Source: a virus. Taken from it: a stretch of DNA of 39,055 bases. The DNA lies in the IMG/VR virus record IMGVR_UViG_3300038485_000133, positions 1 to 39,055 of that record; one strand, written 5' to 3'. The position numbers and the translations under genes are program-made. Position 1 is the stretch's first letter. Each line of letters begins with the position of its first letter. Below, in pieces: positions 34,140 to 35,402 of the stretch. Under the pieces are notes generated by a model. The model was not told the DNA's origin and ran no database searches. It saw only the letters and a list, made by a program, of their open reading frames with translations.

Positions 34140-34158
34140 TGTGATGAACTTAACAGTA

Positions 34159-34190
34159 TGACGCTGACTTTATTGGTAAGGTTAGCGTCA
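34159..34190 (+). other. 10-bp mRNA hairpin between genes
   Basis: 34159-34168 pairs with 34181-34190 (TGACGCTGAC with GTTAGCGTCA, one G-U), loop of 12. No T-run follows, so a typical terminator is unlikely. An imperfect CRP-like site (TGTGA-N6-TAACA at 34140-34155) lies just upstream, with a poor -10 at the expected distance. Confidence 0.5.
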
Positions 34191-34212
34191 GTTAATTAAT
34201 GAGGAAATAGAG

Positions 34213-34425
34213 ATGAGTAATCTTAAGCGCAAAATGTACAAAGCAATGCAAGATTCAAAGTGGTGGCCTGTTGGCGATGAAAGCATTGAAGATATGACAG
34301 AAATTGCCATGGCTGTTACAAGCGAATACACAAACAATATAAATGAAATTCTACTCAGCGGTCTTGATTCGTCAGCAAAGATCGAGTCAATAAAGTTGAT
34401 GCACGAAGACTTAGCAGAAAGTTAA
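34213..34425 (+). CDS. Hypothetical protein, 70 aa
   Basis: ATG 34213 follows GAGGAA. Begins MSNLKRKMYKAMQDSKWWPV with a basic helix, then an acidic helical region (DMTEIAMAVTSEYTNNINEIL). No family recognised. Last gene before a long non-coding region. Confidence 0.55.
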   Translation: MSNLKRKMYKAMQDSKWWPVGDESIEDMTEIAMAVTSEYTNNINEILLSGLDSSAKIESIKLMHEDLAES

Positions 34426-34436
34426 CCAAACCCCAC

Positions 34437-34465
34437 TTTGCATTTGTGTGGAGTGGGTGTATAAT
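34437..34465 (+). promoter_or_regulatory. Promoter of the putative ncRNA
   Basis: TTTGCA or TTGCAT at 34437-34443 and a consensus TATAAT at 34460-34465 with a 16-17 base spacer. It sits directly upstream of the structured RNA and not of any ORF. Confidence 0.6.
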
Positions 34466-34471
34466 TAGATT

Positions 34472-34590
34472 GTTGATTTGGAGTCGTGTCCGAAGATACT
34501 AGAGGGTTTAGGTAGGATTTATCTGTAGCAAAGTACCATCATTACGCCTTGCTAACACGACCAGATAGATCCCGCCTAAGCCCTTTTTTA
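34472..34590 (+). ncRNA. Candidate structured non-coding RNA with pseudoknot and terminator
   Basis: About 119 nt lie between a TATAAT promoter and a six-T run, with no ORF. A 22-bp stem, 34504-34525 with 34562-34583, has only three G-U pairs and one mismatch and ends in TTTTTTA, forming the terminator. Inside its loop a 6-bp hairpin pairs 34526-34531 with 34549-34554. Upstream, GTCGTGT (34483-34489) is perfectly complementary to ACACGAC (34555-34561), which lies inside the big loop and abuts its 3' arm. This gives an H-type pseudoknot that could stack coaxially. I do not recognise a known RNA family. Function unknown. Confidence 0.65.
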
Positions 34591-34889
34591 TTGCCTACCA
34601 CTTATCACTCCAAGTCGCTAATGTCTTTTTAGCGCAGTTTACCATTTCAAACTAAACGCGAAGTTAACCTTTAAAATACAAGCTCTGTGTGCGCCCATTC
34701 ACAACTTGGACCTGATGCCTTTCGAGGCTTGAAGGGGGGATTGAGTACCGCGTTGTTTAGCTCTTAGTAGGAGAAAAGCTAAACTAGACAACGTTGCTAG
34801 AGATAGCACTGTAAGACTTAAAATCTAAAGATTGGTCTATCAGGGGAAAAAGGGCTAGTTGTATCTAAAATTCAATACTGGGGTTAGTT
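34591..34889 (+). other. Non-coding stretch with several hairpins before the HNH gene
   Basis: No credible ORF is seen in these 299 bases. Hairpins visible include CGTTG-TTTAGCT with AGCTAAA-(bulge)-CAACG around 34751-34793, GCCTTTCGAGGC near 34717, and TGCTA with TAGCA around 34795-34808. The density of paired segments suggests a structured RNA or the leader of the HNH gene. Group I intron motifs were sought but the required P7/P3/P8 order could not be made. Confidence 0.45.
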
Positions 34890-35402
34890 ATGGAAAAATA
34901 TGAGCAGTATGCTGAGCTTTCAAAGTTTGTAGGTTATGAGAAAGATACGGGATTATTCTTTTGGAAAACTGATTTGGGTAGAAAAATAAAAGCCGGCTCA
35001 AAGGCTGGTTCGATTGGCGGAGGCGTTAGGAAGTACATCAAGATAGGGTTTAGAGGCAGAACAATGATAGCCCACAGACTGGCTCATGTTATTGTTAACG
35101 GCAAGCTTCCAAGCTCAAAGCTTGATGTCGATCATAAAAATGGAGATTCGCTAGATAATAGATGGTCAAACATATGTGAAGTAAAAACAAGATCTGGAAA
35201 CTTAAAAAACATAAAAACAAGCGCCAAGTCAAACACAGGGCTTAGAGGGGTGAGTAAGGTGCTAATTAATAATAGTGAATACTATGACGTTTCTATGTGG
35301 GATGATGGAAGTAGGGTGTCTAGGAGGAAGTTTACAGACTTCTTTGAAGCTTGCTGTTTTAGGCTGTCGGAGATGAATAGGCTTGAGTATCAAGTGTATT
35401 AG
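34890..35402 (+). CDS. HNH homing endonuclease with AP2-like DNA-binding domain
   Basis: This 170-aa protein carries an HNH_3-type core: AHRLAHVIVNGKLPSSKLDVDHKNGDSLDNRWSNI (His-Asn-His metal site in VDHKNGD). An AP2-like C-terminal DNA-binding segment follows (TGLRGVSK..EYYDVSMWDDG). This is the common design of free-standing phage homing endonucleases that spread by cutting phage genomes lacking them. It sits in a non-structural island next to a structured RNA. The GGGG upstream of the ATG may be the ribosome site. Confidence 0.88.
   Translation: MEKYEQYAELSKFVGYEKDTGLFFWKTDLGRKIKAGSKAGSIGGGVRKYIKIGFRGRTMIAHRLAHVIVNGKLPSSKLDVDHKNGDSLDNRWSNICEVKTRSGNLKNIKTSAKSNTGLRGVSKVLINNSEYYDVSMWDDGSRVSRRKFTDFFEACCFRLSEMNRLEYQVY

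Follow-up and report, generated by a model that had tools for sequence, protein, structure and literature searches.

A candidate family of hypervariable pseudoknot RNAs heading RNA islands of Vibrio phages

Structure and setting of the RNA

The viral record IMGVR_UViG_3300038485_000133, analysed over its full length of 39,055 bases (the window), carries in its accessory region a segment that we regard, on balance, as the gene for a structured RNA of about 115 nt, probably acting in trans, which heads a phage RNA island and belongs to a new hypervariable family. The coordinates of its parts are given in Table 1. By sequence comparison, the relatives of the record are Vibrio phages. The accessory region is flanked by a capsid gene (phrog_247, E 9.5e-103) and a head-tail adaptor gene (phrog_477), and the RNA locus lies, as the initial annotation had placed it, between a small gene, here an ORF of 70 aa (34213-34425) that matched no known family, and a gene for an HNH endonuclease. 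Between two small ORFs further upstream (34140-34199) we noticed an imperfect inverted repeat, TGACGCTGAC...GTTAGCGTCA. A 39-kb contig of a Robiginitomaculum MAG (L040, NVVV01000067.1), perhaps a phage contig that was binned with this MAG, carries a capsid gene whose product shares 81 % identity with that of the window phage.

The predicted fold consists of a long stem P1 (34504-34525 with 34562-34583, 21 pairs and one A.C mismatch, then TTTTTT), an inner hairpin P2 with a stem of 6 bp (34526-34531 with 34549-34554) and a 7-bp pseudoknot formed by strands a and a', the latter abutting the 3' arm of P1. All of this had been read correctly from the letters by the initial annotation, which described a near-perfect 22-bp stem ending as a terminator, an inner 6-bp hairpin and a 7-bp pairing of an upstream segment with the loop strand next to the 3' arm, in a segment without an ORF and behind a TATAAT promoter. 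What it overlooked is the hairpin P0, whose loop carries the 5' strand of the pseudoknot. The minimum free energy of -47.3 kcal/mol compares with a mean of -25.2 for shuffled sequences (z = -6.6), and none of 200 dinucleotide shuffles was as good. The pseudoknot had also been called coaxial, which was not borne out: judged by chain length, the linker of 11-13 nt in type A would be at or beyond its reach over a straight stack of the pseudoknot on P1 of about 29 bp; more probably the arrangement is folded back or dynamic. A protein-coding reading was rejected, as no plus strand ORF of at least 40 aa covers the RNA and the loops differ in length by numbers not divisible by three.

Table 1. Features of the RNA locus and its surroundings in the window
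Feature	Position	Strand	Basis or remark
Promoter/stem-loop joint, CCCCACT...AGTGGG followed by TATAAT; located at the stop codon of the ORF before it	34423..34466	+	reused block
Sigma-70-type promoter, TTTGCA-17-TATAAT	34437..34465	+	consensus match; start near 34472 predicted from spacing
Whole ncRNA (predicted transcript)	34472..34590	+	fold, topology scan, covariation, covariance model
Hairpin P0, UUUGG/CCGAA	34477..34494 (34477-34481 with 34490-34494)	+	loop contains strand a
Pseudoknot strand a, GTCGTGT	34483..34489	+	100 % paired; 4/7 pairs changed on both sides
P1, 5' arm	34504..34525	+	8/20 counted pairs changed on both sides
Hairpin P2 (TAGCAA/TTGCTA)	34526..34554	+	1/6 pairs changed on both sides, 0 broken
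Pseudoknot strand a', ACACGAC, against P1 3' arm	34555..34561	+	covariation
P1, 3' arm and U6, terminator-like end	34562..34589	+	sequence; covariation; U5-U7 in 26/27 members
Noncoding remainder of the island, with hairpins and the 'type I' element	34590..34889	+	in relatives, tRNAs and other structured elements here
Gene for an HNH endonuclease, behind the island and outside the RNA (context)	34890..35402	+	PF13392 E 1.7e-11; phrog_99 E 1.3e-34

Recurrence of the pairing order and covariation

The order of pairings had been called unlikely by chance. For the one sequence this does not hold: 585 of 20,000 leader shuffles yield an equally good pseudoknot, which makes it only mildly unlikely in the window sequence alone, and relatives were therefore tested. 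There the claim is upheld by recurrence and covariation. About 27 loci from Vibrio phages and viral contigs retain the identical order of strand a, P1 5' arm, hairpin P2, strand a', P1 3' arm and U-run, with a, P1, P2, a', P1 found in all members. A topology scanner, a script that tests only the pairing order and was used here in strict mode, matched 21 loci including the window itself (L001), all of the same RNA family, and returned no match on either strand of 2.34 Mb of shuffled sequence. Searching viral contigs for the base of P1 followed by a T-run gave 44 stretches, 11 of which pass the scanner; an additional stretch from this search, L092, resembles subfamily E, and one further member, L056, was reached via capsid relatives. 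The members fall into about 15 sequence types, for which we coined letters (A, D, E, J and others), and from type to type the pseudoknot, P1 and P2 have new sequences in the same pairing order. Many Vibrio phages have a nearly identical promoter block, and in many of these it is followed by a very different RNA body with its parts in the same order. Going by these sequences, the RNA is no isolated case and represents a hypervariable family, which the initial annotation missed; the family is surely under-sampled, as loci were found via relatives and exact patterns.

Compensatory changes in relatives, which the initial annotation had set as its own test, are present. All seven pairs of the pseudoknot form in each of the seven alignable members and four are changed on both sides; over all helices this applies to 13 of 34 pairs (for P1 and P2 see Table 1), a level reached by 0 of 500 shuffles, which is not a strict probability because the members are related. 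When the partners were slid by 1-3 columns, only 31-49 % of the control positions paired. The main weight lies on these slid controls and on the wholesale rewriting between types rather than on the shuffles. Across types, strands a and a' read GTCGTGT/ACACGAC, GTCGAGT/ACTCGAC, GTGAAGC/GCTTCAC, GTAGTGC/GCACTAC, GTGGTAG/CTACCAC, GTGGTGA/TCACCAC, GTGAGATG/CATCTCAC, TGAGACC/GGTCTCA, GGTGAGAG/CTCTCACC, GTGGAAG/CTTCCAC, GGTCGGAC/GTCCGACC, GTCGAAC/GTTCGAC, TTGAAAGA/TCTTTCAA, TGGAAGGG/CCCTTCCA and ATTGAAC/GTTCAAT. We trained a covariance model, with no pseudoknot encoded, on seven sequences from types A, D and J. It recovers the other types, most at E values of 1e-11 to 6e-4 and L092 at only 0.6; it also matches the mirror strand, because P1 is self-complementary.

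Strand a usually lies within the loop of the small 5' hairpin P0, the stem of which differs between types (for example UUUGG/CCAAA, AUUUAAG/CUUAAGU, AGCGG/CCGCU and GUAUUGAG/CUCGAUAC). Regarding P0, the picture is well supported only in part: 82.9 % of its cells are paired in the seven-sequence alignment, with no double changes, and the hairpin is broken in type D on the alignment and weak in types G, M_L091 and P. Subfamily E seems to possess an additional long-range helix, likewise overlooked before, in which the linker before P1 can pair with the P2 loop over up to 12-13 bp. This helix is rewritten between members, with GCAATTTGGTAGA/TCTATCAAGTTGC in L112, GTAAAATGGTAG/CTATCATTTTAC in L114 and GAAACTTGGTGGA/TCTATCAAGTTTC in L016. 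The windows for the tests of P0, of this long-range helix and of the one in the downstream element (see below) were chosen by eye after viewing the sequences, and the p values of these tests are therefore descriptive only.

In four loci (L005, L024, L025 and L026) the same promoter block is followed by another kind of 5' RNA, 'type H', whose pairing order is unchanged. Its pairing CTTGACGGGA/TCCCGTCAAG is compensated to CTTGGCGGGA/TCCCGCCAAG in L026, and it has no U-run.

Promoter block and U-run

A -35/-10 pair, scored by consensus match, is located upstream of the RNA in all 27 members scored; the -10 box is mostly TATAAT and ends 12-28 nt before strand a, and the pair is weak in L092. At the other end, U5-U7 directly follows P1 in 26 of 27 members, and in L092 a T6 run was seen in the viral-contig scan. 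The fixed start and end give the locus the look of a small RNA gene. The proposal of an own promoter and a terminator-like end is thus sustained by sequence, and a product of about 115 nt would be expected from it.

The promoter itself appears, from its distribution, to be a separate, reused joint at the stop codons of unrelated small ORFs, a point missed by the initial annotation. The block at 34423-34474 matches most of 314 Vibrio phage records at 89-100 %. It precedes other sequences, without the RNA, in L006, L028 and L029, and occurs twice in L015 (L015:1013 and L015:1381), where it flanks an ORF on both sides. T4-type phages reuse promoter/stem-loop cassettes (PeSL) at gene borders, and the joint at 34423-34466 resembles these as a reused promoter plus stem-loop at gene borders; the likeness covers the promoter joint only and not the RNA.

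Such reuse at stop codons, also where the RNA is missing, could mean that the whole locus is mere mobile punctuation, a promoter and a terminator reused at module borders in which the RNA structure is incidental. We consider this improbable. The pseudoknot and P1 covary, and a simple terminator has no need of a pseudoknot or a long-range helix. Moreover, promoter sequences are unrelated between several types and the same RNA is found behind unrelated promoters (L007, L068, L076, L094 and others).

The RNA island downstream

In most members, the roughly 260-500 nt behind the U-run contain no convincing gene. ARAGORN found tRNA genes after the RNA in L083 (Ser and Arg), L113 (phage Seahorse; Trp, Arg and Gly) and L117 (vB_VaM_H2; Met and Arg), and a tRNA-Arg nearby in L115. 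Those of L083, L113 and L117 begin 0-8 nt past the U-run. In L008 and L068 tRNAs were detected by Rfam only and are not accepted by ARAGORN. Most members have no tRNA behind the RNA, and neither ARAGORN nor Rfam found a tRNA or tmRNA in the window. The sequences suggest that the RNA heads an RNA island, in some phages a tRNA-bearing one, which had also been missed.

In L016, L034 and L114, a 7-bp acceptor-like stem, GTATCTG/CAGATAC, stands right after the U-run. The domains in these three loci look tRNA-like without being called as tRNAs, and similar ones occur in L087 and L105.

Usually the next component of the island is a second noncoding element of up to about 290 nt, which is of several types and ends just before a gene (L007, L034, L083, L087, L091, L056, L076, L005 and L114). 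It belongs to no Rfam family. Some types contain a GCGATAAA-like motif and a long-range helix of 5-10 bp with differing sequence, rewritten between loci (TTAGACC/GGTCTAA, TTAGAGGC/GCCTCTAA and TTAGATACG/CGTATCTAA). There is no fixed pairing of RNA types with downstream elements: at least four downstream types occur behind type A and three behind type C. L112 (phage BT-1011) lacks the downstream element and has only a remnant of the tRNA, but its RNA is intact.

The U-run immediately before tRNA genes is a point against the reading as an independent noncoding RNA, since placing it there would make poor sense with fully efficient termination. The tRNAs of L113, L117 and L083 need read-through, because there is no room for another promoter after the U-run. 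Their position is an argument for the main rival, a cis-acting leader (attenuator or anti-terminator) in which the P0 loop would pair with a' before the 3' arm of P1 is made, altering termination at P1 and thereby gating transcription of whatever tRNAs, second element and gene lie downstream. In every case the RNA is placed between a promoter and a downstream RNA or gene, and in nascent folds up to a' the probability of a:a' is 0.8-0.99 in several types. However, it is about zero in types E, G and O, by a method that cannot model pseudoknots; a and P1 share no bases to compete for, most members lack a tRNA behind, and L112 retains the RNA in spite of its reduced island. A precedent exists in phage HK022, whose put RNA acts in cis to suppress termination and which is, like the RNA described here, a structured RNA close behind a phage promoter (PMC9378689). 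Unlike it, put is about 70 nt long, consists of two stem-loops with no reported pseudoknot and suppresses termination, whereas our RNA ends in a terminator-like stem (PMC9378689). Taken together, we hold a cis-acting leader to be possible but rather unlikely. An obligate kinetic switch was rejected, as nascent folding agrees with it in some types and not in E, G and O.

Comparison with known RNAs

The designation as a new phage ncRNA agrees with the Rfam results. The cmscan of the window against the Rfam covariance models at the gathering threshold gave no match to the RNA, and with lax thresholds the region 34420-34920 and related loci gave only tRNAs and chance-level matches, with no GOLLD, ROOL or ribozyme. 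A literature search found no description of this RNA. The promoter pattern had no match in bacterial genome contigs and the covariance model R1 had none in a set of 150 genomes from one phylum, that of a marine MAG, both weak negatives; in plasmids the two weak matches (E 0.3) were both inside traI. An omega-RNA-like partner of the HNH nuclease was rejected, as RNA types also precede genes for a DNA methylase, Orf172 and a phosphoesterase.

From these sequences, the RNA most likely represents a new family among the structured ncRNAs that phages encode at tRNA islands, comparable to GOLLD and ROOL. GOLLD is phage-encoded, ROOL is found in phages and prophages, both often lie near tRNA islands and both are of unknown function; ROOL contains multiple pseudoknots (PMC12286853). 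Phage tRNA genes nearby, the trait shared with these two, are present in L083, L113, L115 and L117 and not in the window. The family resembles GOLLD as a structured phage ncRNA with a tRNA-island location and a variable 5' part, and differs from it in being about 115 nt long, with a U-run end and no Rfam match, whereas GOLLD is an Rfam family and is often longer than 800 nt. ROOL is much larger and forms a nanocage, and it too is unlike our RNA, for which Rfam has no match.

The GOLLD layout raises the question of whether the segment is only the 5' domain of a larger ornate RNA of about 500-700 nt, with a variable 5' domain, a linker possibly containing tRNAs and a conserved 3' domain. In GOLLD itself the 5' region is less conserved than the 3' region and tRNAs sometimes sit in the linker (PMC12286853). 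In our loci, a variable 5' part, a tRNA-bearing linker and a downstream element with a covarying long-range helix would fit this layout, as would type H, a 5' RNA without U-run ahead of the downstream element. In the window, GCCCUUUUU at the end of the RNA is complementary to AAAAAGGGC (34847-34855) in the downstream element, which also speaks for a larger RNA. The same complementarity occurs in L014, L016 and L068, which share this downstream element, but is not general. Nevertheless, almost every member of types A-P has U5-U7 behind P1, the free combination with downstream elements and the case of L112 also speak against a larger RNA, and neither GOLLD nor ROOL is matched in Rfam. We judge a larger RNA to be unlikely. 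Pairing of the U-run with a downstream A-run was tried as a general feature and rejected, being notable with some downstream elements only.

By description only, the family can further be likened to RNAs C and D of phage T4, small stable RNAs of unknown function in the T4 tRNA cluster, since it too would be a small stable RNA, in some phages next to tRNA genes. The nested order P1-P2-P3-P1-P2 of HDV-like ribozymes is identical to the order a, P1, P2, a', P1 of all members, and a:a' often has 7 bp, which might suggest a self-cleaving ribozyme. In HDV-like ribozymes the J4/2 strand, with its catalytic cytosine, lies between the 3' strands of P1 and P2. In type A there is no place for such a strand because a' directly abuts the 3' arm of P1 (0 nt between them). 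The second helix has more than 20 bp and Rfam gave no ribozyme match, and self-cleavage is very improbable. Another Vibrio phage, ICP1, has a predicted noncoding RNA of unknown role as its most abundant transcript (PMC7567579); both are Vibrio phage ncRNAs, yet those of ICP1 are about 800 nt long and ICP1 lacks tRNAs.

Proposed function and significance

Under the favoured reading as a probably trans-acting RNA, the host RNA polymerase would start at the sigma-70-type promoter a few bases before P0, and the transcript would fold into P0, the long stem P1 and the hairpin P2, with the P0 loop pairing to the strand between P2 and the 3' arm of P1. Transcription would stop, at least partly, at P1 and the U-run, and the RNA would be the first member of the island, the tRNAs right after the U-run being made by read-through in several relatives. 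The stable RNA may then bind a protein or assemble, and would be recognised by its shape. As the fold is kept and the sequence is free, an RNA that works by shape is favoured over one pairing with a fixed target. The initial annotation had put forward a regulator, a decoy or an antidefence RNA as candidate roles.

More speculatively, and with little confidence, these RNAs may represent a new class of RNA device, hypervariable pseudoknot RNAs of conserved fold at the head of tRNA islands. In such a device the loop-junction pairing and the terminator could set the amount of tRNA and of the second RNA, or complementary loop and junction could allow multimers like those of GOLLD and ROOL.

Noncoding RNAs beside tRNA islands are among the least understood products of phages. 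A compact family of about 115 nt in isolated Vibrio phages of culturable hosts, among them the V. natriegens phage vB_VnaS-L3 and a Nahant V. cyclitrophicus phage, makes deletion, probing and pull-down practical, and the naturally compensated sequence change renders the structure directly testable. The tRNA genes right behind the U-run pose a concrete question, namely how the expression of tRNAs is controlled in these phages.
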